In this document: in pieces, positions 4,341 through 23,391 of the stretch
Layout: every line of letters starts with the position of its first letter
How positions within the stretch are numbered: position 1 is the first letter of the stretch
Source: Cytophagales bacterium
GTDB lineage: Bacteria > Bacteroidota > Bacteroidia > Cytophagales > Cyclobacteriaceae
NCBI GenBank assembly: GCA_003500135.1
Contig: DNTA01000242.1
Location: forward strand, 1-23,408
Length of the DNA: 23,408 bases
Direction of reading: 5' to 3'
Notes under the pieces: generated by a model
What the model was told of the DNA's origin: nothing
Databases searched by the model: none
The model's input: the letters and a program-made list of their open reading frames with translations, nothing else
Made by a program: the position numbers and the translations under genes

Positions 4341-4661
4341 ATCGGGTCAATATTATAATTGTTTAAGCGAATAAAAAATAAAGTTGTAATTATCACTATA
4401 TAGAACATCGACTTAATTTCAGTATATTATTTGGCCTTAATGACAAATGCATCACTTATATTTTGATTATTATTATACCGGAAATACAGAATACACAATC
4501 TGCCCCTAAGTAACAACAATACACTTATTAACAATGTCGTAATTGGAACGATTTAAACCTCCTTCAATTAACAATTACATAATTTTCATGTAGCCTAATT
4601 ACATTTTATGTATATTTTTCATATTTAGTTTATAATATTTTTAGTTTTTACGTATAAATAC
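4341..4661. other. AT-rich intergenic region, no gene seen
   Basis: These 321 bases between the channel gene and the tRNA-like array are very A/T rich and hold no open frame with recognisable protein character. No clear terminator follows the channel gene. The far right end approaches the promoter-like box at 4662-4669. Nothing else can be supported here. Confidence 0.6.
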
Positions 4662-4669
4662 TAAGTTTG
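4662..4669 (+). promoter_or_regulatory. Possible -7 element for the tRNA-like array
   Basis: TAAGTTTG is a full match to the Bacteroidota -7 consensus TAnnTTTG and lies 33 bases before the first tRNA-like gene. At the usual 19-21 base spacing the -33 position is only TTTT rather than TTTG, so this is a half-supported promoter. Orientation and distance fit a short leader before 4702. Confidence 0.45.
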
Positions 4670-4701
4670 TATCAAACAAAAGGCTAGTTTTTTGAAATAA
4701 T

Positions 4702-4825
4702 TGTAAGGTGATGAAACTGGCAGACATGCCCTCCTGTCCCGGGGGTGGAGGTTCGGGAAAAACTGCGTGTGTTGATCAGACATGTGGCTAACTACTCCGT
4801 GAAGGTTCGAATCCTTCCCTTACAG
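4702..4825 (+). ncRNA. tRNA-like RNA, copy 1 (anticodon-position GUC, giant variable arm)
   Basis: The sequence folds as a cloverleaf. The acceptor stem is TGTAAGG (4702-4708) with CCTTACA (4818-4824), seven Watson-Crick pairs, followed by discriminator G4825. T8-G9 are followed by a 3-pair D stem, ATG/CAT, around a GAAACTGGCAGA-type loop like that of Leu tRNAs. The anticodon stem CCCTC (4729-4733) pairs with GGGGG (4741-4745) around the 7-base loop CTGTCCC, with U33 in place and GUC at 4736-4738. The T arm GAAGG-TTCGAAT-CCTTC is canonical. The variable region (4746-4800) is 55 bases: a closing stem TGGAG/CTCCG and an inner hairpin at 4763-4787. CCA is not encoded; CTA follows the discriminator. 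It may be a chargeable tRNA, a non-translating tRNA mimic or a tRNA-derived regulatory RNA. The fold is read by eye. Confidence 0.75.
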
Positions 4826-4828
4826 CTA

Positions 4829-4855
4829 CAAGCAAAGGCATAAGGCCTAAGCTTG
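4829..4855 (+). other. Linker hairpin between copies 1 and 2
   Basis: CAAGC (4829-4833) pairs with GCTTG (4851-4855), and inside it AGGC (4836-4839) pairs with GCCT (4845-4848) across an AA/AA internal loop. No T run follows, so it is not a standard terminator. It may instead separate and help process the units. The same hairpin recurs after copy 2. Confidence 0.5.
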
Positions 4856-4874
4856 CATTAACATTTTAACATAT

Positions 4875-4998
4875 TGTAAGGTGATGAAACTGGCAGACAT
4901 GCCCTCCTGTCCCGGGGGTGGAGGTTCGGGAAAAACTGCGTGTGTTGATCAGACATGTGGCTAACTACTCCGTGGAGGTTCGAATCCTTCCCTTACAG
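4875..4998 (+). ncRNA. tRNA-like RNA, copy 2 (anticodon-position GUC, giant variable arm)
   Basis: This copy is almost identical to the unit at 4702-4825 and has the same length of 124 bases. Acceptor TGTAAGG (4875-4881) pairs with CCTTACA (4991-4997), with G4998 as discriminator. GUC is at 4909-4911 in the loop CTGTCCC. The visible change within the unit is in the T stem, where GAAGG becomes GGAGG; opposite CCTTC this turns an A-U pair into a G-U pair, so pairing is kept. The 55-base variable region is unchanged. Retained pairing suggests the copy is functional rather than decaying. What charges or uses it is unknown. Confidence 0.73.
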
Positions 4999-5001
4999 CT
5001 A

Positions 5002-5028
5002 CGAGCAAAGGCATAAGGCCTAAGCTTG
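5002..5028 (+). other. Linker hairpin between copies 2 and 3
   Basis: This is the same hairpin as at 4829-4855, with one A-to-G change in the left arm (CGAGC in place of CAAGC). Opposite GCTTG the change makes a G-U pair instead of A-U, so the stem is preserved. Confidence 0.5.
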
Positions 5029-5047
5029 CATTAACAATTTAACATAT

Positions 5048-5186
5048 TGTAAGGTGATGAAACTGGCAGACATGCCCTCCTGTCCCGGGGGTGGAGGTAC
5101 GATAATTATCGAAAGGGATAAAGCTAATGCGATGATCAGGCATTATGCCTAACTGCTCCGTGGAGGTTCGAATCCTTCCCTTACAG
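5048..5186 (+). ncRNA. tRNA-like RNA, copy 3 (longer, diverged variable arm)
   Basis: The core is the same as in the other copies: acceptor TGTAAGG (5048-5054) with CCTTACA (5179-5185), discriminator G5186, GUC at 5082-5084, and T arm GGAGG-TTCGAAT-CCTTC. The variable region (5092-5161) is 70 bases and largely different in sequence. The closing stem TGGAG (5092-5096)/CTCCG (5156-5160) is kept. A palindrome CGATAATTATCG at 5100-5111 replaces the short GTTCGGGAAAA-type segment. The inner hairpin is TAATGC (5125-5130)/GCATTA (5140-5145) around GATGATCAG. The loop has the same 9-base length as in copy 1 and nearly the same sequence, while the stem bases differ in compensating pairs. This pattern supports a conserved structure under selection. 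Confidence 0.72.
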
Positions 5187-5196
5187 CTATCATCTT

Positions 5197-5234
5197 AAAG
5201 GCTGCCATAAATCAATGGCAGCCTTTATTGTTTC
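5197..5234 (+). terminator. Terminator of the tRNA-like array
   Basis: A 12-base perfect stem, AAAGGCTGCCAT (5197-5208) with ATGGCAGCCTTT (5215-5226), has a 6-base loop and is followed by the T-rich ATTGTTT. It begins 11 bases after the third unit and so closes the array's transcript on the + strand. Confidence 0.8.
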
Positions 5235-5537
5235 CCCAATAAATTATCCTTTCTTTTTACTATATCATTGCTCTGAAACCAGATAATTGAGCATTTCCAA
5301 AAACCACTTAATCCAAAATTTACTGTTCAGTGGTGTCTGATATTCATGTTAAAAGCTTCCATCGATCAAATTAAACCTCCGTAATCAATACCCGGTAAAC
5401 TGAAACCTTAAAAAGTGAATTTAATCCCCTTTTATTTTGTTATAAATACAGACACCAAGGCGATTAAATTACGGGTATTTTACCTTCATACGAAAACGTT
5501 TAGTATATAGCTTTTTTTATAGTTTAACCAGACCGTC
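5235..5537. other. Leader region of the hydrogenase operon, no gene seen
   Basis: About 300 A/T-rich bases separate the array terminator from hoxF. No convincing TTTG / TAnnTTTG pair, riboswitch-like fold or operator repeat could be picked out by eye. The operon promoter must lie here or read in from further upstream, but its position is not supported. Confidence 0.5.
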
Positions 5538-7343
5538 ATGAATAATACAAAAATAGAGTCTATTGTCGGACGATATAATGGTGATGCAACGCGTTTGATG
5601 GATATATTGATCGACATTCAGGATGAGATGGGATGCATACCTGATGATTCCATACAGCAACTTTCCAGGATACTGGACATTTCTAAAGTTGATATTGAAC
5701 AAACATTGACCTTTTATCATTTCCTTTCAAAAACTCCCCGTGGCAAATTTACCATCTATCTGAATAATAGTGCCGTGGCCAATATGTTTGGCCGCAAAGA
5801 GGTTGCCCAGGCTTTTGAAGATGCAGCCGGTTGTAAATTTGGTGAGGTAACATCTGATGGACTGATTGGTCTATTTAACACCTCGTGCATTGGCATGAAT
5901 GATCAGGAACCAGCTGCAATTATCAACAACGCGGTTTTCACCCGCCTCACCCCTTTCCGCGCCAAAGAAATCATTCGTGATTTAAGGAAAGGCAAATCCA
6001 TACCGGAACTTTTTGTAGCCGGTTATGGTGATGGAAATAATAGTTCCGATTTGATCCACGCGGTAGTCAACAACCACATAATGAAAAAGGGGGCCGTGCT
6101 GGCCGAAAACTATGAACTTGGCATTTCAACGCATAGAGCGATGGAAATGAGCCCTGAAGCTGTGATTGAAGAAGTAAAGAAATCGAACATTCGTGGTCGT
6201 GGTGGCGCGGGCTTCCCTACCGGATTGAAATGGGAATTTTGCCGCAAATCGCCCGGTGAAAAGCACTTCGTGTTTTGTAATGCTGACGAAGGTGAACCAG
6301 GAACCTTTAAAGACCGGGTGATCCTTACTGAAAAGCCCGATATGATATTTGAGGGCATGACAATAGGTGCATATGCGATAGGAGCTGAAGAAGGCATACT
6401 TTATTTGAGATATGAATACAAATACCTTCAGGACTTTTTGGAAAAACACCTGGAAGATTTGCGTCAAAAAAACCTATTGGGAAAAAATATACTTGGAAAT
6501 CCGGATTTTAATTTTGACATACGGATTCAATTTGGCGCAGGCGCATATGTCTGCGGTGAAGAATCGGCACTGTTGGAATCTGCTGAGGGTAAGCGAGGTG
6601 AACCTCGTGACAGGCCTCCTTTTCCAGTAGAAAAAGGATACCTTCAGCAGCCTACCATTGTCAACAACGTTGAAACATTTTGCAGCGTTGTCAAAGTAAT
6701 CCAAAACGGAGGCGACTGGTATCGAACTTTGGGCACAAAGGAATCGAGTGGCACCAAATTACTTTCTGTTTCCGGCGATTGCAGGTTCCCCGGAGTGTAT
6801 GAAGTGGAATGGGGTTTTAGTGTAAATGACATACTGGATATGGTAGGCACCGATAAAGACCAGGTTCAAGCCGTTCAGGTAGGCGGGCCATCAGGATCAT
6901 GCATTGCTCCAAATGAATTCAGTCGCATATTGTGCTTTACCGATTTAGCCACCGGTGGTTCCCTCATAATTATCGGCAAACACCGCAATCTGCTAAGAGA
7001 TATAGCGCTCAATTTTACTGATTTCTTTATTGAAGAGTCATGTGGTTCTTGTACCCCATGCCGGGCGCTTACCCCAATCCTCCGAAATAAACTTGTGAAA
7101 ATTATTGAAGGGAAAGGGGTGATGAGTGATTTACGTGATTTGGAGAACTGGTCGAAAATCATGAAAACCAATCGCTGCGGACTGGGACAGACAGCCGTAA
7201 ATCCCATACTCTCCTCTCTGAAAAATTTCAGGGACCTCTACACTTCCAAAATTCAACAGGATGTGGCCTATGATCAGGGATTCAGAATGGATGAAGCCGT
7301 GGCAGAAGCTTGTCAGGCTACCTATAGAGGATTTAACTATTAA
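5538..7343 (+). CDS. hoxF: NAD-reducing hydrogenase diaphorase subunit HoxF (NuoE-NuoF fusion)
   Basis: The 601-residue protein joins a NuoE-like N-terminal domain (about 1-150) to a NuoF-like FMN/NAD(H) module (about 180-601), the same layout and length as HoxF of Ralstonia-type soluble hydrogenases. The FMN loop is GRGGAGFPTG at 220-229. The NADH-binding part includes GAGAYVCGEESALLES at 333-348. The [4Fe-4S] ligands are C502, C505, C508 (SCGSCTPC) and C547 (RCGLGQ). In the N-terminal domain three of the four usual [2Fe-2S] cysteines are missing: the first pair is replaced by a stretch without cysteine, and CxxxC becomes C117-IGMN. That domain is therefore probably structural. HoxF passes electrons between NAD(H) and HoxU in the cytoplasm. 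It is the first gene of the operon, 10 bases before hoxU. Confidence 0.95.
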   Translation: MNNTKIESIVGRYNGDATRLMDILIDIQDEMGCIPDDSIQQLSRILDISKVDIEQTLTFYHFLSKTPRGKFTIYLNNSAVANMFGRKEVAQAFEDAAGCKFGEVTSDGLIGLFNTSCIGMNDQEPAAIINNAVFTRLTPFRAKEIIRDLRKGKSIPELFVAGYGDGNNSSDLIHAVVNNHIMKKGAVLAENYELGISTHRAMEMSPEAVIEEVKKSNIRGRGGAGFPTGLKWEFCRKSPGEKHFVFCNADEGEPGTFKDRVILTEKPDMIFEGMTIGAYAIGAEEGILYLRYEYKYLQDFLEKHLEDLRQKNLLGKNILGNPDFNFDIRIQFGAGAYVCGEESALLESAEGKRGEPRDRPPFPVEKGYLQQPTIVNNVETFCSVVKVIQNGGDWYRTLGTKESSGTKLLSVSGDCRFPGVYEVEWGFSVNDILDMVGTDKDQVQAVQVGGPSGSCIAPNEFSRILCFTDLATGGSLIIIGKHRNLLRDIALNFTDFFIEESCGSCTPCRALTPILRNKLVKIIEGKGVMSDLRDLENWSKIMKTNRCGLGQTAVNPILSSLKNFRDLYTSKIQQDVAYDQGFRMDEAVAEACQATYRGFNY

Positions 7344-7353
7344 AGACAATGCC

Positions 7354-8070
7354 ATGAATCAAATAATTAAAATAGAAATAGATGGTCAGGTTTGTATGGG
7401 ACAAAAAGGTCAATACCTGGTTGATGTAGCCCGTGAAAATGGTATTTATATACCTACTTTATGCAACATAATTGGCATGAAACCCAGGGGCGCTTGTAGG
7501 TTGTGTACGGTTCGCGTTAATGGAAAATTGATGACCTCTTGCACCACCCCTATCTCAAACGGTATGCAGGTGGAAACTAAATCCGAAGAATTGGATAACC
7601 TGAGGAACGGAATAATTGAATTGATGTTTGCAGAAGGCAATCACTTCTGCCCTGCCTGCGAAAAAAGCGGTAATTGTGAATTGCAGGCGCTGGCATATCG
7701 TTTCAGAATTTCAGTACCGCGGTTTCCGTTCCAGTTTCCACAGCGCGATATCGAGGCGGGCCACCCTTTGCTGATAAAAGATCATAACAGATGTATTTTA
7801 TGTAAGCGATGCATCAGGGCTATCAAAGACGAATCGGGAAAAAGCATATTTGCCTTTACAAAAAGAGGACCTAAAGTAGGTATATCCATTGACACCACTT
7901 TGTCGGCTAAAATGGATAAAACACTTGCACAAAAAGCTGTGGAAATTTGTCCTGTAGGGGCCATTCTACCACGTGCCCAGGCATTTCGATCACCTATTGG
8001 CACTCGTAAATACGATAAGACTCCAATTGGCGAAGAAGAATCATCCAAAAAAGACCCCGTAGCGTTATGA
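7354..8070 (+). CDS. hoxU: NAD-reducing hydrogenase diaphorase subunit HoxU (NuoG-like, FeS)
   Basis: This 238-residue iron-sulfur subunit links the HoxF flavin module to the hydrogenase module. Its N-terminal ferredoxin-like [2Fe-2S] site uses C37, C48, C51 and C63. A second cluster site follows in GNHFCPACEKSGNC (H97, C99, C102, C108). A [4Fe-4S] site has C147, C150, C153 and C199 (CILCKRC ... CPVGAI). The length matches other HoxU proteins (about 235). The ATG at 7354 is chosen because it begins the conserved MNQIIKIEIDG strand; the longer open frame from 7261 overlaps hoxF and adds unrelated residues. The stop overlaps the hoxY start by 4 bases (ATGA), suggesting coupled translation. Confidence 0.95.
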   Translation: MNQIIKIEIDGQVCMGQKGQYLVDVARENGIYIPTLCNIIGMKPRGACRLCTVRVNGKLMTSCTTPISNGMQVETKSEELDNLRNGIIELMFAEGNHFCPACEKSGNCELQALAYRFRISVPRFPFQFPQRDIEAGHPLLIKDHNRCILCKRCIRAIKDESGKSIFAFTKRGPKVGISIDTTLSAKMDKTLAQKAVEICPVGAILPRAQAFRSPIGTRKYDKTPIGEEESSKKDPVAL

Positions 8071-8618
8071 AAAAAGCTGTAATTGCAACCACATCACTGG
8101 CCGGATGCTTTGGCTGTCACATGTCATTACTTGATATCGACGCCAAAATACTGGACCTGATAGAATTGGTGGAATTCGATAAATCACCTATTAACGACCT
8201 GAAAACCTTTACAAGAGAATGTGATATAGGCTTGATCGAGGGAGGCTGTTGTAACAGTGAAAATGTGGAAGTACTCAAAGACTTCCGCAAACATTGCAAA
8301 ATATTGATCTCTGTTGGGGAATGTGCAATAATGGGTGGCTTACCCGCGCTTCGCAACAATATCCCTGTGAAGGAATGCCTGGAAGAGGCCTATTTGAATG
8401 GACCAAGTGTGGCCGGTAATAACGAAGCCGGTATTATTCCCAATGACGATGAACTTCCAATACTTTTAAATAAGGTTTATCCCTGCCACGACATCGTAAA
8501 GATCGACTACCACCTTCCTGGCTGCCCACCAAGAGCAGGACTGATTTGGGAGGCGCTTTACGCATTACTTACAAATCAGAAAATTGATTTGCCTTATGAA
8601 TTGGTAAAATACGATTAA
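8067..8618 (+). CDS. hoxY: NAD-reducing [NiFe] hydrogenase small subunit HoxY
   Basis: The 183-residue protein is the short, cytoplasmic type of [NiFe] hydrogenase small subunit, with no Tat signal. Ligands of the proximal [4Fe-4S] cluster are C14 and C17 (LAGCFGCHMS), C86 (VGECAIMGG) and C153 (LPGCPPRA). No medial or distal cluster ligands follow, as expected for group 3d enzymes. It docks to HoxH and passes electrons to HoxU. The start overlaps the hoxU stop, and hoxH follows after 11 bases. An extra CC pair at 61-62 (EGGCCNSEN) is also seen in related proteins and need not bind a cluster. Confidence 0.95.
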   Translation: MKKAVIATTSLAGCFGCHMSLLDIDAKILDLIELVEFDKSPINDLKTFTRECDIGLIEGGCCNSENVEVLKDFRKHCKILISVGECAIMGGLPALRNNIPVKECLEEAYLNGPSVAGNNEAGIIPNDDELPILLNKVYPCHDIVKIDYHLPGCPPRAGLIWEALYALLTNQKIDLPYELVKYD

Positions 8619-8629
8619 AGGAAAAAAGG

Positions 8630-10081
8630 ATGACAAAGAAAATAACGATAGAACCCGTCACCCGGGTAGAAGGACATGGAAAAGTGACAGTACACCTGGA
8701 TGAGAAAGGAAACGTAACACAAAGCAGGTTACATATAGTAGAATTCCGGGGATTCGAACGATTTATCCAGGGACGGCCATTTTGGGAAGCCCCGGTACTG
8801 GTACAAAGGCTATGCGGTATATGTCCTGTAAGCCACCACCTGGCAGCAAGCAAAGCTATGGATGCTATTGTTGGTGTCACGCCGGAAACGATTTCGCCAA
8901 CCGCTGAAAAAATGAGAAGGTTAATGCACTATGGGCAAATTTTCCAGTCGCACGCCTTACACTTTTTCCATCTTGCCAGCCCCGATTTACTTTTCGGCAT
9001 AGACGCCGAACCAGCCAGGAGAAATGTCATTGCCCTGGCCATGGAGAACAAAGAACTTGCCTCTCAGGGCATATTGATGCGACAGTTCGGCCAGGAGGTC
9101 ATAGAGGCTACCGCCGGAAAAAAAATCCATGGCACAGGCGCCATTCCTGGTGGAATAAATAAGGCGCTTGATCCACAAGACAAAGACCGGTTCTTAAATG
9201 GTGCCGATCCGTTGAATGCTGCTAAAATGGTTGACTGGGCTGAAGATGCGTTAAACTTTTTCCTTGATTATCATAAAAAAAACAAGGAATTCATTGACAA
9301 TTTTGCCGCATTTCCATCCAACCACCTAAGCATTGTCAGAAAAGATGGTGCACTTGACCTGTACCACGGAGTATTGAGGGCTGTAGATACGGCAGGCAAC
9401 AAAATACTGCATGACATCGACTACAACACCTACCTCGATTTTATCGGTGAAGAAGTGAAATCGTGGAGTTATATGAAATTCCCGTTTTTAAAAAACAAAG
9501 GTAAAAAAGAAGGCTGGTACAGGGTTGGACCATTGGCAAGGCTTAACACAGCTGATTTTATACCCTCACCTCGTGCCCAAAAAGCATTTGAGGCCTACAA
9601 AGCATACACCAACGGCAAACCAAACAATATGTCGATGCATATGCATTGGGCAAGATTAATTGAAACACTTCATGCCGCTGAAATGATCGAAACATTACTT
9701 CAGGACCCTGAAATATTGGAGGGGGAACTTATACGGGAAGGCAAGCGGCAATCCGAAGGCATAGGTCTGTTGGAAGCCCCAAGAGGCACCTTGTTCCATC
9801 ACTATCAGGTCGATGATAACGACCTGATTTCAATGGCCAATCTGATTGTTTCTACTACCAATAATAATGAACCCATGAATCAGGCGGTCCACCTGGTTGC
9901 CAAGGAATATCTGGAAGGTCAAAAAGAAATAACTGAGGCCATGCTAAATGCTGTTGAAGTTGCGATCCGCGCGTATGACCCATGTTTAAGCTGTGCCACT
10001 CATGCCATGGGTAAAATGCCACTGAAGGTTACATTATTAGACGCATCAGATAAGATGTTGGATGAAAAACTAAAGAATTGA
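8630..10081 (+). CDS. hoxH: NAD-reducing [NiFe] hydrogenase large subunit HoxH (precursor)
   Basis: This 483-residue catalytic subunit carries the Ni-Fe site. The nickel ligands are C62 and C65 in RLCGICPVSHH and C452 and C455 in DPCLSCATH. The N-terminal TRVEGHGK (RxEGH) is also present. After H458 come 25 more residues, a C-terminal extension of the kind removed by a specific protease after nickel insertion; the protease gene follows after 4 bases. Length and extension match HoxH of bidirectional NAD-linked hydrogenases. A purine-rich AAAGGAAAAAAGG stretch just before the ATG is one of the better ribosome-binding sites in the window. No sign of damage is seen, so an active enzyme is likely if Hyp proteins are supplied from elsewhere. 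Confidence 0.97.
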   Translation: MTKKITIEPVTRVEGHGKVTVHLDEKGNVTQSRLHIVEFRGFERFIQGRPFWEAPVLVQRLCGICPVSHHLAASKAMDAIVGVTPETISPTAEKMRRLMHYGQIFQSHALHFFHLASPDLLFGIDAEPARRNVIALAMENKELASQGILMRQFGQEVIEATAGKKIHGTGAIPGGINKALDPQDKDRFLNGADPLNAAKMVDWAEDALNFFLDYHKKNKEFIDNFAAFPSNHLSIVRKDGALDLYHGVLRAVDTAGNKILHDIDYNTYLDFIGEEVKSWSYMKFPFLKNKGKKEGWYRVGPLARLNTADFIPSPRAQKAFEAYKAYTNGKPNNMSMHMHWARLIETLHAAEMIETLLQDPEILEGELIREGKRQSEGIGLLEAPRGTLFHHYQVDDNDLISMANLIVSTTNNNEPMNQAVHLVAKEYLEGQKEITEAMLNAVEVAIRAYDPCLSCATHAMGKMPLKVTLLDASDKMLDEKLKN

Positions 10082-16435: not shown

Positions 16436-16554
16436 ATTAAAAAGCTGAACAGGTTTAATGTTCCTAAAAAGAACGATTTTACACTTTTTCATGATCTGAA
16501 AGCCCTATTTTCAAGTTGAAAAGAATTGATTTTATAAATAACCCCGTAGCCTTT

Positions 16555-18173
16555 ATGAAAAATATTCATTTTCTAATATTTCTATATCTGCTAATAGGTT
16601 GTTCGACAAAAGAACAAAGATATAAAAAGCCCAATATCTTACTCTTTATTGCAGATGATATGAGTTTTAGTCATATGAGCCACGATGGCTTTCCTGAAGT
16701 TCAAACTCTGAACATCGATAAGCTGATCAATACAGGTGTATATTTTACGAATGCTTATTGTGCTGCACCTTCCTGCTCTCCGTCAAGGGCCGCCATACTT
16801 ACCGGAAGAAATGGTTATGAACTCAAAGAAGGCGCCGTATTATGTGGTTTTTACCATCGGGATTTCAAACCTATCCCGATATTTTGGATGAAGAAGGCTA
16901 TTTTACTGGTTTTACCGGTAAGGGATGGGGCCCAGGAAATATTGAAGATGCCGGTCGCAGCCATAATCCTGCCGGGTACAGTTACAATGAAATCAAGCAT
17001 ATTCCTTTTGAGGAATATGGAATTGATGGGCAAATTTATAATGTCAATTATGTTGCAAATTTCAAATCTTTCATAGATAGCCTTCCCAATGACCAGCCTT
17101 TTTTGCTTTTGGATGGGAACCATCGAACCACATCGTCCTTATGTAGAAGGTATTGGTAAAAAAGTGGCAAAAATCCAAATAATATTGACGTACCTAAGTT
17201 TTTAATAGACAATGAGCTAACCCGATCTGACATAGCCGATTTCCTTTTTGAAATCGAATGGTTCGACAAAAATATAGGGCTTGTTTTAAATCATCTCGGT
17301 TCACTGGGCAAGCCTGGCAATACCTTCGTAATCGTAACATCCGACAATGGCATGCCTTTTCCACGTGCAAAGTCAAACTTGTACGGATAAGGCGCTCATA
17401 TGCCTTTGATCGCTTGGTGGGGCGATAAGATAAAAGAGGCTGTTGAAATAAACGAATATATTAGCCTAGCAGATATTGCCCCCACTTTCCTGGATGCTGC
17501 CGGAGTTTTTATACCCTATGAAACGTCTCGAAAAAGCTTTTTACCGCTTATTGTGCCGGAAAAATCTTCTGAACAAAAGGCAAATAGAGATTTTGTAGTT
17601 ACTCATAATGAGCGACATGCCTGGGTACATCCCGGTGGTCAAATGGCGGCCTCGAGAGCCATTCATATGGATGACCATCCCCTCATTCACAATTTATTTC
17701 CCGATATGTGGCCGGCCGGGCATATTGATGCCTTTTATCATTGGGACCTTTATCCTTTCGGGGACGCTGACGGTGGCCGTGCAAAAACGGAGCTTCTAAA
17801 AGCCAGATTCACCCGGGATAGTGCACTTTTCAAACTTGTTTTCGGCAAGCGACCCGAATTTGAACTTTACAATGTAAAAGCTGACCCTTTTAACTTATCA
17901 AATCTGGCCGATAAGGAGGAATTCAGGTGTGTAAAAGAAAAATTGCAAACCACATTATATGAATATCTTTTGGCCACAAACGACCCATGGCTGACTGGGT
18001 ACACGACAATTTACTATCAAGCGCCGTGTTACGCCATGAAAGGCTTGCCTACCTACGATTTGTTTTTAGAGGACTGGAACAGCCTCGATAGTTTGTAAAA
18101 AGCTGAGGAAAGGCAAAAACAGCTCGAAATTTTGAAAGACCACAACGCTGAACTGGAGAAGTATGGTTGGTAA
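16555..18173 (+). pseudogene. Sulfatase lipoprotein pseudogene (three frameshifts, two stops)
   Basis: Read across its lesions this is a sulfatase of about 540 residues. It begins with a lipoprotein signal (LIGC lipobox, C16), then PNILLFIADD with metal ligands D34/D35, and the formylglycine site C74-S-P-S-R in AAPSCSPSRAAILTGR. Around 16848-16852 a T is lost from a T run and the frame moves. At 17099-17104 a T is gained, restoring QPFCFWMGTIEPHRPY. At 17158-17163 an A is lost, after which GKNPNNIDVPKFL is read. An in-frame TAA stands at 17388-17390, between LYG and GAHMPLIAWWG, and another at 18096-18098. The original C terminus, ending in HNAELEKYGW, stops at 18171-18173. Homopolymer errors could explain the shifts but not easily both stops, and no other gene here shows such damage. 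The enzyme would have removed sulfate from carbohydrates at the cell surface. Confidence 0.9.
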
Positions 18174-19269: not shown

Positions 19270-21462
19270 TTAGAAATTAAAATTGAGTCCTGCTAAATAT
19301 AAGCCGCCTATTTGGTCAGTGAATCCAAATTCATCTTGCTCAGAGTTAAAGATATTGCGTCCGTTTACAAAAAGGTTCACACCGTTGATTACCTCATATC
19401 CTATCTTCAGGTTGAATATGGTTCGAGGATCAATGGTGGTAGAACCAATTTCTTCATTATATGAAGCCGCTTCATGTCGGTAAGTCTGCTCTCCCATATA
19501 GTATACATGAGCAAATACACTTAATCTATCAAGCGGTCTCCAGTTTGCTGTTGCGCCCCCATAAAAAGAAGGAGTACGTGTATGATCTGTATTTTGTCTT
19601 TCATATGTTGTCAATTTAAATGTCCCCGTAGAAGGATCGATTCCAGGGGGTGATATTTTCATATCGTAATCCTCTAGTTCGGTATGCTGTACAGTCCCAA
19701 AGAAGCGGAATTTTAAAGCTCTGACCGGCGCCCAATTCACATTGAAAGAGGCCCCTGTTTGCCTTACCTTCAAATCATTGTTGAGATATGCAAAATTCAA
19801 TACCGCAGTCCCCTGAGGGTCAGTTTCAAAACTTACTGGCTCAAATGTCGAAATATCGCTCATATTCGTCCTGAAGAATTCGAAATCTACTAATACTTTT
19901 TCGGAAATGTTGGCCCGATACCCTAACTCGATCATATTCATAGTCGGGAGGTTCAAGGATTCATTCCCCAGGAATTTTACACCATAGCCTAGTGACTCAA
20001 CATAGAAATTAGTATATGAGTCGATCATAAACGGGCCGCGATTGGACTTGGAGTATACCAACCTTATCAAATTATTTTCATTTATCTTATACGACCCTAT
20101 AAACTGATAGGTGAAATAAGAATCATCGGGCACATTGTAGTTGTCAGACCGCAATGCAGCTATCAATCGTAATTTTTCATCCAGTACTTTGTAATCAAAT
20201 TTGATGAAATACGCCAAATTTGTCAGTTCCCTTTCGGCATTGAAATATCCCCCGGGCCTGCCTGCTTCCAAATAGGGCAAATCATTATAAACACTTCTCT
20301 GGTAATTTATACCCGGACGTATGGATAGGTTGTTAATTACCCAATCATAATCCAAATTGAAATCGGTTTTGTTAAAATCAAACTCTGATACTTGAGGGCT
20401 GCCCTTGAAAATATCCTGCGTGCCATTTTCATATGAGTACTGGGCATTAAACCCATATACATCGGCCATCATATTGACGTACGAAGAATTGGATGTCCGC
20501 GTACCCATCTGGGTGTCAAGGATTTCAAAATAAGCAGTCTGCGCCTCAGAATCCTGGAAACCAGCGGCTACATCAATGTCAATCTTTTCACCAGGCGAAT
20601 AATTTACATAAGCATTAAGTCCAGCGCGTTCTTTGGACAGAGCGGGGTTACTGAATTTTTTCTCCGGTTCAAACGCCGGGATATTATTCGGGTAATAAAT
20701 AAGCTCCTCCCTTGGCGTATAGGCGCCCGTTCCCCAATTGTAATAAGTTTCCTGGTCCCTGTCACGTTTTTCAAAATTACCGCTTACCCCTATGTGCAAT
20801 TTATTATCGGCAAAGCCTTTTGCAACATGTAAATCGGCAATTAATGTGTTTTTTGTCCCTGCCTGTACATTGCCGGCCACAGTCAACGATTCTGTATTGT
20901 TTTTACGGGTAATGATGTTGATCACCCCGCTTACCGCATTTGGCCCGTATAGTGGGGATGACGGACCGCGCACCACTTCTATTTGCTCAATATCGACCAG
21001 GCTAATGGGCAGGGTTTCCCAAAACGTACCGCCATTCGCATAATTATACACCCTTCTACCGTCAACCATCACAAGGGTAATATTATTCTCGGAGAAAAAA
21101 GTAAAGCTGCCCGGGGGCAAGTTATCATTCCCCCTTATATGTACATCAAAATTGCCATTGGATTCTTCCCTAACAATCAAGCCAGGTACCAAGCGCATTG
21201 CTTCTTCAATAGTGGTCGCGCCCGAAGAAATGATTTCTTCACGCGTAATTACCGTAGATGATAGCGGTGCATCAAAACTACTTTCGGCTTTTTTCGAGGC
21301 AGAATAAATCTCTACCTGCATTAGCTCTTCCAATGACATTTCAAACATGTCATCTTCGTCTGCGTTCTGTGCGAGTGCCATTATACCGGGAAGCATATAC
21401 ATGCAAACCGCTGTTAAAAGTCTTATTTGTCTGTTCATTTTAAAAAAATTTCGATGTTTCAT
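19270..21462 (-). CDS. TonB-dependent outer membrane receptor
   Basis: The 730-residue protein starts with a signal peptide (about 9-32, LLTAVCMYMLPGIMALAQ). A linker DMFEMSLEELMQVEIYSASKKAES is typical of receptors in YfiR-type operons. The plug domain covers about 60-175 and includes SSTVITREEIISSGATTIEEAMRLVPG, VDGRRVYN and VVRGPSSPLYGPNAVSGVINIITR. The rest is a beta-barrel with many aromatic-polar strands, ending in GLYLAGLNFNF with the C-terminal Phe favoured for outer membrane insertion. It imports a ligand with TonB energy; the ligand is not evident and there is no SusD partner. It begins 6 bases after the yfiR stop, so the two form an operon. Its last 270 codons are repeated at 22574-23391. 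Confidence 0.95.
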   Translation of the reverse strand: MKHRNFFKMNRQIRLLTAVCMYMLPGIMALAQNADEDDMFEMSLEELMQVEIYSASKKAESSFDAPLSSTVITREEIISSGATTIEEAMRLVPGLIVREESNGNFDVHIRGNDNLPPGSFTFFSENNITLVMVDGRRVYNYANGGTFWETLPISLVDIEQIEVVRGPSSPLYGPNAVSGVINIITRKNNTESLTVAGNVQAGTKNTLIADLHVAKGFADNKLHIGVSGNFEKRDRDQETYYNWGTGAYTPREELIYYPNNIPAFEPEKKFSNPALSKERAGLNAYVNYSPGEKIDIDVAAGFQDSEAQTAYFEILDTQMGTRTSNSSYVNMMADVYGFNAQYSYENGTQDIFKGSPQVSEFDFNKTDFNLDYDWVINNLSIRPGINYQRSVYNDLPYLEAGRPGGYFNAERELTNLAYFIKFDYKVLDEKLRLIAALRSDNYNVPDDSYFTYQFIGSYKINENNLIRLVYSKSNRGPFMIDSYTNFYVESLGYGVKFLGNESLNLPTMNMIELGYRANISEKVLVDFEFFRTNMSDISTFEPVSFETDPQGTAVLNFAYLNNDLKVRQTGASFNVNWAPVRALKFRFFGTVQHTELEDYDMKISPPGIDPSTGTFKLTTYERQNTDHTRTPSFYGGATANWRPLDRLSVFAHVYYMGEQTYRHEAASYNEEIGSTTIDPRTIFNLKIGYEVINGVNLFVNGRNIFNSEQDEFGFTDQIGGLYLAGLNFNF

Positions 21463-22552: not shown

Positions 22553-23391
22553 TTGTAGTTTAATGTTTCTGCATTAGAAATTAAAATTGAGTCCTGCTAA
22601 ATATAAGCCGCCTATTTGGTCAGTGAATCCAAATTCATCTTGCTCAGAGTTAAAGATATTGCGTCCGTTTACAAAAAGGTTCACACCGTTGATTACCTCA
22701 TATCCTATCTTCAGGTTGAATATGGTTCGAGGATCAATGGTGGTAGAACCAATTTCTTCATTATATGAAGCCACTTCATGTCGGTAAGTCTGCTCTCCCA
22801 TATAGTATACATGAGCAAATACACTTAATCTATCAAGCGGTCTCCAGTTTGCTGTTGCGCCCCCATAAAAAGAAGGAGTACGTGTATGATCTGTATTTTG
22901 TCTTTCATATGTTGGCAATTTAAATGTCCCCGTAAAAGGATCAATTATCTCAGGGATTATTTTCTTATCGTAATCCTCTAGTTCGGTATGCTGTACAGTC
23001 CCAAAGAAGCGGAATTTTAAAGCTCTGACCGGCGCCCAATTCACCATGAAAGAGGCCCCTGTTTGCCTTACCTTCAAATCATTGTTGAGATATGCAAAAT
23101 TCAATATCGTAGTCCCCGGAGGATCAGTTTCAAAATTTACTGGCTCAAATGCCGAAATATCGCTCATATTCGTCCTGAAGAATTCGAAATCTACTAATAC
23201 TTTTTCGGAAATGTTGGCCCGATACCCTAAATCGATCATATTCATAGTCGGGAGGTTCAAGGATTCATTCCCCAAGAATCTTACACCTGTATTGCCTAGT
23301 GCCACAACATTGAAATTAGTATATGAGTCGATCATAAACGGGCCGCGATTGGACTTGGAGTATACCAACCTTATCAAATTATTTTCATTTA
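22525..23391. repeat. Direct repeat of the receptor 3' end (second copy of 19221-20084)
   Basis: About 865 bases are repeated in the same orientation, 3.3 kb apart, with the offset changing from 3304 to 3307 because of one 3-base insertion. The block includes the terminator and the last third of the receptor gene. Direct repeats of this length allow recombination that would delete or exchange the 3.3 kb between them, which contains the rest of the receptor and yfiR. Confidence 0.9.

Follow-up and report, generated by a model that had tools for sequence, protein, structure and literature searches.

A widespread tRNA-like RNA of Bacteroidota with aspartate identity nucleotides and U1-A72, a probable carrier for asparagine synthesis

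In the 23,408-nucleotide stretch of DNA analysed here (the window), which comes from a Cytophagales bacterium of the family Cyclobacteriaceae (GenBank assembly GCA_003500135.1, contig DNTA01000242.1, positions 1 to 23,408 of the forward strand), three tRNA-like RNA genes are arranged head-to-tail on the + strand. Unit 1 (4702..4826, from U1 to C74), unit 2 (4875..4999, one base different from unit 1) and unit 3 (5048..5187) carry variable regions of 55, 55 and 70 bases, respectively, and their acceptor stems (TGTAAGG/CCTTACA) are paired at seven of seven positions. A first-pass annotation made from the sequence alone had described this array, including the perfect acceptor stems, a T arm with TTCGAAT and a five-pair anticodon stem, and both its coordinates and its anatomy were confirmed. 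In unit 1, the 5′ strand of the acceptor, with U1 and G2 (4702..4708), pairs with 4818-4824, and is followed by a D arm resembling that of tRNA-Leu (ATG-AAACTGGCAGA-CAT, 4711..4727) and by an anticodon-like arm (CCCTC-CTGTCCC-GGGGG, 4729..4745), in which G34, U35 and C36 occupy 4736-4738, C37 is at 4739 and C38 at 4740. The variable region (4746..4800) is closed by a GGAG/CTCC base stem (4747-4750 with 4795-4798) and contains the motif GGGAAAAA (4755-4762), a hairpin with the 9-nt loop GTTGATCAG (loop 4771-4779) and the motif CTAAC (4788-4792); the T arm (GAAGG-TTCGAAT-CCTTC, 4801..4817) and the discriminator G73, an aspartate identity base, with C74 (4825..4826) complete the unit. The arm of unit 3 differs from those of units 1 and 2 and has a second hairpin, CGATAATTATCG. 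The cloverleaf features U8, A14, G18, G19 and the T loop are all readable in the units, and G73 and C74 are present in all three, with no encoded CCA. The array is preceded by a promoter-like −7 box, TAAGTTTG (4662..4669, + strand), of the form TAnnTTTG, which we take to be a Bacteroidota promoter type, and is followed by a strong terminator hairpin (5196..5227, + strand; fold −21.4 kcal/mol, z −6.5) and a T-rich stretch; a promoter-like box and a terminator had both been proposed in the annotation. No integrase was noted near the array when the open reading frames (ORFs) of the window were read, with no further check.

The array was not recognised by existing RNA models. ARAGORN predicted no gene in the window, and Rfam gave no match there at the gathering score; when 4600-5300 was searched at E ≤10, nine weak matches were obtained (best E 0.041), none of them to a tRNA model. 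The near-matches, such as a plastid psbl-rps4 3′UTR on the reverse strand of the T arm and sn3060, were rejected as weak, and tmRNA (RF00023; a tRNA-like domain with a tag reading frame) was set aside with no Rfam or ARAGORN tmRNA match. ARAGORN also found no gene in 60 named loci carrying the RNA when it was run for tRNA-Asp and tRNA-Asn. Although the RNA shares the cloverleaf stems and tertiary nucleotides of canonical tRNA (RF00005), it is not matched by tRNA models and does not follow the rule of U33 and a purine at position 37. No description of such an RNA was found in the literature searched, in which coverage of subscription papers and bioRxiv preprints was thin, and none of the Bacteroidetes motifs in the available part of PMC2864571 is named as tRNA-like. 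The view that this is not a described RNA class therefore holds for the Rfam release and the literature searched.

The three units are members of a widespread, apparently undescribed RNA family and not an oddity of one strain. Neither a strong Rfam match nor a lack of homologues in other strains, both named in the annotation as evidence against it, was found. A blastn search with unit 1 gave matches in 75 of 98 genomes (its own genome counted); the match in G036 was weak. The covariance-model search of Bacteroidota suggested in the annotation was then carried out with a model, R1, built from 46 units, which scored the window units at 127.6 bits (unit 1, at 4701-4826), 127.6 bits (unit 2) and 117.3 bits (unit 3). 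Among 296 genomes drawn from the phylum, 31 gave matches of at least 73 bits, one of them a partial match (G187, 73.4 bits) that proved on reading to be a full unit. The further matches listed were a near-armless form in G071 (68.9 bits) and sequences of ordinary tRNA-Leu length scoring 62.7 bits or less. In 80 further relatives, R1 detected the RNA in 56; two tRNA-Leu-like matches in relatives (63.1 and 56.4 bits) were read and look like tRNA-Leu, and one genome in which the RNA is split over two contig ends (G073) was scored as negative, which leaves the counts based on glutaminyl-tRNA synthetase (GlnRS) unaffected because it has no GlnRS. A pattern scan of named genomes found the RNA in at least 120 stretches, and the hosts of the 80 stretches listed include Pedobacter, Mucilaginibacter, Chitinophaga, Hymenobacter, Pontibacter, Algoriphagus, Cyclobacterium and Saprospiraceae, together with one record titled Ignavibacteriales. 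Several copies occur per genome, with up to six in tandem.

The RNA was also present in 20 viral contigs (L209-L228). A blast search of named phages and plasmids with the window unit gave no match; a phage-type unit used as query matched one uncultured 636-kb phage (LR756504.1, 133312-133455), in which the RNA lies within a tRNA cluster and is identical to the unit of viral contig L227. The huge-phage copies were seen in tRNA gene clusters with tRNA-Asn and tRNA-Thr. In several viral contigs the RNA neighbours an operon in which one ORF of 609 aa resembles a large terminase by eye, and in one viral contig (L214) a tyrosine-integrase-like ORF, also named by eye, adjoins the RNA. An association with mobile elements or integrases was considered as a general reading of the RNA and rejected.

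Alignment of 46 distinct relatives showed that the named helices were paired in 97.7% of cells. Both sides of a helix had changed in 86 cells, as compared with 29.9 in shuffled alignments (none of 500 as high) and 2-22 in slid controls. The anticodon-like stem and the T arm were each paired in 46/46 relatives, and the outer pair of the D arm changed from A-U to U-A in 8/46 and was unpaired in 4/46. Single-sequence folds of the units were no more stable than those of shuffled sequences (z −0.2 to −0.3), and the evidence for the structure is therefore its conservation and not its energy. The variable region ranged from 39 to 124 bases across the scanned units and follows one layout: a closed base of GGAG/CTCC or variants of it, a conserved internal loop and a hairpin of highly varied length and tip. 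Among the 73 units found by blastn or by R1 (the unforced set), the internal loop carried RANAAA on its 5′ side in 70 and CTAA on its 3′ side in all 73. A second conserved tip, of the UUGACCAC type, was found in 13/73, 47/103 and 15/15 units of three sets, the last being viral, and was seen in the long arms of distant families (L017, L026, L035 and L057) as well as in viral units. Several hairpin tips contain six-base palindromes in a nine-base loop; such loops, through which kissing-loop dimers might form, are present in a subset only. The unit of G071 (L310) has the same acceptor pairs, G73, a CTATCTC loop and a variable arm of about 8 bases, apparently a natural deletion of the arm.

To define the constant nucleotides, 191 distinct units were collected by a scan that required full standard stem pairing, a T-loop seed (G, TTC, G/A, A), a D-loop GG and a variable region no shorter than 35 bases, so that units with any unpaired stem position were left out. 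U1-A72, G2-C71, G73, U35, C36 and C38 were each found in 191/191 units and G34 in 178/191. Units outside the unforced set (L089-L228) had been fetched by a pattern containing ACAGC, and the invariance of positions 70-74 in these loci is partly forced by it; in the unforced set the same six features were constant in 73/73 units and G34 in 71/73. One unit (G032) had changed pair 3:70 and retained 1:72, 2:71 and G73. According to the available parts of PMC9976931, bacterial aspartate identity rests chiefly on G73, G34, U35, C36 and C38, with G10 added in a table, and G1-C72 and G2-C71 are conserved in bacterial tRNA-Asp and crucial. U1-A72 is the pair recognised by the bacterial amidotransferase GatCAB (PMC4206432, seen in part). 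The tRNA-Asp genes that we read had G1-C72 in 23/23 rows and the loop CTGTCAC. Judged by its nucleotides, the RNA joins the five strong aspartate determinants and the GatCAB signal to an anticodon loop that appears unfit for decoding. Of the three options offered in the annotation, this evidence favours that of a tRNA mimic with a role outside translation; the reading as a whole was partly supported, and it had missed the aspartate set in the loop and at G73 as well as U1-A72.

Position 33, for which the annotation had noted U, is U in the three window units; across the family it is U in 149, G in 22, C in 14 and A in 6 of the 191 units. Position 37 is U in 184 and C in 7, and never a purine. 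Decoding is unlikely because position 33 varies and position 37 is a pyrimidine. That the RNA is a decoding tRNA-Asp or a suppressor with a large arm, as the anticodon GUC of most units and the huge-phage copies inside tRNA gene clusters might suggest, is therefore scarcely credible, the more so as a normal tRNA-Asp was found in the RNA-carrying (RNA+) genomes read, the window's own genome among them. The RNA shares G73, G2-C71, GUC (apart from the units without G34) and C38 with bacterial tRNA-Asp and differs from it by U1-A72 instead of G1-C72, mostly A10, a pyrimidine instead of A at position 37, a variable position 33 and the long arm. The likeness to tRNA-Leu, which the annotation had noted for the D arm, lies mainly there: class II tRNA-Leu also has a variable arm, and R1 scores Leu-length matches (83-90 bases) up to about 63 bits, but the RNA has G73 instead of A73 (191/191), an Asp-type loop, no Leu anticodon and an arm up to about five times longer.

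The combination of U1-A72 with the aspartate signature led us to predict a link to GatCAB, and this prediction, in the form of gatB, was stated before the search. Set 1 comprised 74 of the 296 genomes, namely all 31 RNA+ genomes and 43 others chosen to cover families, and set 2 comprised 80 of the 93 relatives outside set 1, the 13 left out being all blastn-positive; gatB was the only subunit gene scored. It was found in 31/31 RNA+ genomes of set 1 and 56/56 of set 2. Within the class Bacteroidia, set 1 had gatB in 29/29 RNA+ genomes vs 1/24 without the RNA (RNA−), the exception, G138, having no GlnRS. GlnRS was present in 26/29 RNA+ and 23/24 RNA− Bacteroidia of this set, and among these GlnRS-containing genomes gatB was found in 26/26 vs 0/23 (Fisher 1.7e-14, relatedness ignored). 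The corresponding counts in set 2 were 29/29 vs 1/10 (Fisher 4.7e-8, relatedness ignored), the exception being G050, an 82% complete genome, and in GlnRS-containing Bacteroidia of both sets pooled 55/55 vs 1/33. All 11 genomes of set 2 without gatB were RNA−, and of its 13 RNA− genomes with gatB, 12 had no GlnRS and the other was G050. The same contrast was seen inside families, where the tested RNA− members of f24 (G114, G211) and f23 (G099, G218) also had no gatB. Outside the class, both RNA+ genomes had gatB and no GlnRS, and gatB was over the cut-off in 17/19 RNA− genomes. The rule linking the RNA to gatB thus holds for the class Bacteroidia and not for the phylum sample. In eight gatB neighbourhoods read by eye, alaS or a lipoprotein-like ORF was seen in several, with no obvious hydrolase.

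An AsnC/Lrp-type regulator gene lies divergently upstream of the RNA, 108-252 bases away, at 89 of 152 testable cellular loci (37/70 and 52/82, some loci overlapping) and at none of 16 testable viral loci. The protein combines a DNA-binding domain and a ligand domain, both of the AsnC type, and its best PDB match is a chain named regulatory protein AsnC (125.7 bits; next match, 85.9). TAnnTTTG occurs upstream of the RNA in 55 of the 89 AsnC-RNA intergenic regions, as compared with a mean of 11.6 in single-base shuffles. Other neighbours of the RNA change between families. The idea of a partner enzyme recurring beside the RNA was rejected: the neighbour shared across families is AsnC, and sufB and a gene identified by eye as an acyl-CoA ligase are found repeatedly at some of the loci. 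In one genome (G134; L242, 1446-2003) a different Lrp/AsnC-like ORF was seen by eye about 900 bases upstream of gatB. In Escherichia coli, AsnC responds to asparagine and asnC is divergent from asnA. The arrangement found here resembles the asnC-asnA pair, with the RNA gene in place of asnA as the proposed asparagine-supply gene.

The distribution of asparagine enzymes was examined in set 1. Asparaginyl-tRNA synthetase (AsnRS) was present in 74/74 genomes, in 72 of them over the cut-off. AsnA was found in seven, of which G000 (the window's own genome), G365, G088 and G257 are RNA+ and G099, G331 and G323 RNA−; in G000, G365 and G088 it occurs with GlnRS absent. Among the matches listed (E to about 1e-22), AsnB of the E. 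coli type, as judged by hit shape and length, was found in 19/24 RNA− vs 0/29 RNA+ Bacteroidia. The model NF006949 (cut-off 499) confirmed two such proteins of RNA− genomes (920 and 959 bits) and gave 185-336 for six long AsnB paralogues from five RNA+ genomes, and blastp with one AsnB found the type in nine RNA− genomes, a count that includes the genome of the query and one from outside the class. In four RNA+ genomes (G245, G361, G087 and G069) the matches listed include no asnA, and no asnB that exceeds the cut-off.

What was observed directly is an RNA family with constant nucleotides, a linkage to AsnC and, within Bacteroidia, a shared occurrence with gatB. From this we propose that the array probably specifies a tRNA-Asp mimic that does not decode and acts as the carrier on which asparagine is made by an RNA-dependent route. 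The host aspartyl-tRNA synthetase (AspRS) would recognise G34, U35 and C36, C38 and G73 and load the RNA with aspartate. GatCAB would then read U1-A72, which is absent from real tRNA-Asp, and use glutamine as the amide donor to turn the aspartate into asparagine, and the asparagine would be released or handed on. The free position 33 and the pyrimidine at 37 would keep the RNA out of translation and so avoid asparagine at aspartate codons, and the AsnC-type regulator, divergent beside the RNA at many loci, would tune its supply to the asparagine level. The proposed chemistry, enzymes and U1-A72 signal are those of the known tRNA-dependent asparagine synthesis, in which a non-discriminating AspRS and GatCAB act on tRNA-Asn (Thermus, Deinococcus, Bdellovibrio). 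That pathway, like this RNA, is also found beside AsnRS and GlnRS according to the part of PMC4206432 available, which is the closest literature and proposes tRNA-Asn as the carrier. The carrier proposed here differs in its Asp-type, decoding-unfit loop, its Leu-like D arm, its variable region and its frequent linkage to AsnC.

Several observations weigh against this proposal. Position 10 is A in 146, T in 33 and G in 12 of the 191 units, so that the G10 of tRNA-Asp identity is mostly missing, and 13/191 units have lost G34. Charging could be poor because G10 is mostly absent and pair 1:72 is U-A. The proposal accounts neither for a release step nor for the large arm, the G071 unit being seemingly armless. 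GlnRS is absent in 27/56 RNA+ genomes of set 2 and 3/29 RNA+ Bacteroidia of set 1; in these, as in the two RNA+ genomes from outside the class, the presence of GatCAB is already accounted for. The genomes are related, so the counts are not independent. Sixteen stretches around asnA or asnB genes showed no AsnC (in one, L322, asnA itself was not recovered). AsnA occurs in 4/29 RNA+ Bacteroidia, the window's own genome included, and most RNA+ genomes have long AsnB-like proteins over the TIGR01536 cut-off among the matches listed, paralogues that might be asparagine synthetases. A complete RNA− genome (G114) had no gatB, asnA or asnB match among the matches listed, and is possibly an asparagine auxotroph.

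Two further points against the proposal also speak for synthesis of asparagine on ordinary tRNA-Asn, through a non-discriminating AspRS and GatCAB, as in Bdellovibrio, with the RNA as a regulator or decoy, for instance one that holds together or titrates AspRS and GatCAB. The first is that tRNA-Asn has U1-A72 in 21/25 readable rows (some genomes give two rows; those of G000 and G146, truncated at contig ends, were left out) and keeps it in 10/14 RNA+ genomes read, and the known route could operate in those ten because it does. The second is that outside the class, 6/8 RNA− genomes with GlnRS, and with AsnRS too, have gatB over the cut-off, so that GatCAB can persist without the RNA. In addition, the available part of PMC4206432 names Bacteroidetes among genera with AsnRS, GlnRS and GatCAB and without Asn synthetase, suggests the tRNA-Asn route for them, and discusses GatCAB retained beside GlnRS and AsnRS as possibly vestigial. 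However, this route should fail in the four RNA+ genomes whose tRNA-Asn has G1-C72 (G134, G253, G272 and G088), yet gatB and the RNA are kept in them, and a decoy has no need to keep the charging determinants together with the U1-A72 switch. Three of these genomes (G134, G253 and G272) have GlnRS, AsnRS and gatB, no asnA and a long AsnB paralogue each; in these genomes tRNA-Asn and tRNA-Gln alike should neither require GatCAB nor be suitable for it, which leaves the RNA as the candidate substrate. We therefore regard synthesis on tRNA-Asn as unlikely, although the most serious of the alternatives, and prefer the RNA as the carrier.

The RNA might instead be charged with aspartate or asparagine and used by a non-ribosomal aminoacyl transferase that modifies the cell wall, lipids or peptides, the asparagine form being produced by GatCAB. 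Staphylococcal non-proteinogenic tRNA-Gly is a precedent for a non-decoding tRNA, and the tandem copies and the presence in phages would suit such a use. We consider it improbable: no transferase gene was seen recurring beside the RNA, where the recurrent neighbour is AsnC, and the opposite distribution of E. coli-type AsnB better fits asparagine supply. Staphylococcal tRNA-Gly, allo-tRNA and selC* are all tRNA-shaped, charged but unusual RNAs, and differ from the RNA described here in amino acid, structure, host phylum and enzymes. More improbable still is a regulatory RNA that senses aspartate or asparagine charging and acts through its variable arm, the tRNA shape serving for processing and sensing alone. 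Although the hypervariable tips, with their occasional palindromic loops, and the second conserved UUGACCAC-type tip could be read in this way, the tips vary widely from one genome to another and G071 has almost no arm, whereas the charging determinants do not vary.

In the window's own genome (G000, 94% complete), AsnC is absent from the site of the three units. The genome has gatB, AsnRS and an asnA that is diverged (300 bits against a cut-off of 292.8) and gave no GlnRS match, so GatCAB should serve Gln-tRNA there too. This bacterium may have two routes to asparagine, one of them through the RNA. Elsewhere in the window, a gene run at 5538-10081 with a NuoE/NuoF-type fusion, a NuoG-type iron-sulfur protein, a small subunit and a nickel hydrogenase large subunit (Pfam) resembles an NAD-linked [NiFe] hydrogenase. 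A sulfatase gene at 16516-18098 is split over several frames, with a Sulfatase N-terminal part and a separate SGSH C-terminal part. A TonB-dependent receptor-like gene lies at 19270-21462, and 22574-23377 is a partial copy of one end (96% identity over 821 bases).

If the proposal is correct, Pedobacter, Chitinophaga, Hymenobacter and Algoriphagus would be among the genera in which the RNA is a metabolic carrier and does not decode, and many bacteria would make an amino acid on a dedicated RNA. This would account for GatCAB being kept beside both GlnRS and AsnRS in many Bacteroidia, and for RNA+ members managing with no AsnB of the E. coli type and, for the most part, no AsnA. Automatic predictions of asparagine auxotrophy would change, and the phage copies would gain a metabolic meaning. 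More tentatively, free asparagine across much of Bacteroidota may be made on an AsnC-regulated RNA that never enters the ribosome, of which large phages carry a copy to raise or redirect asparagine supply.

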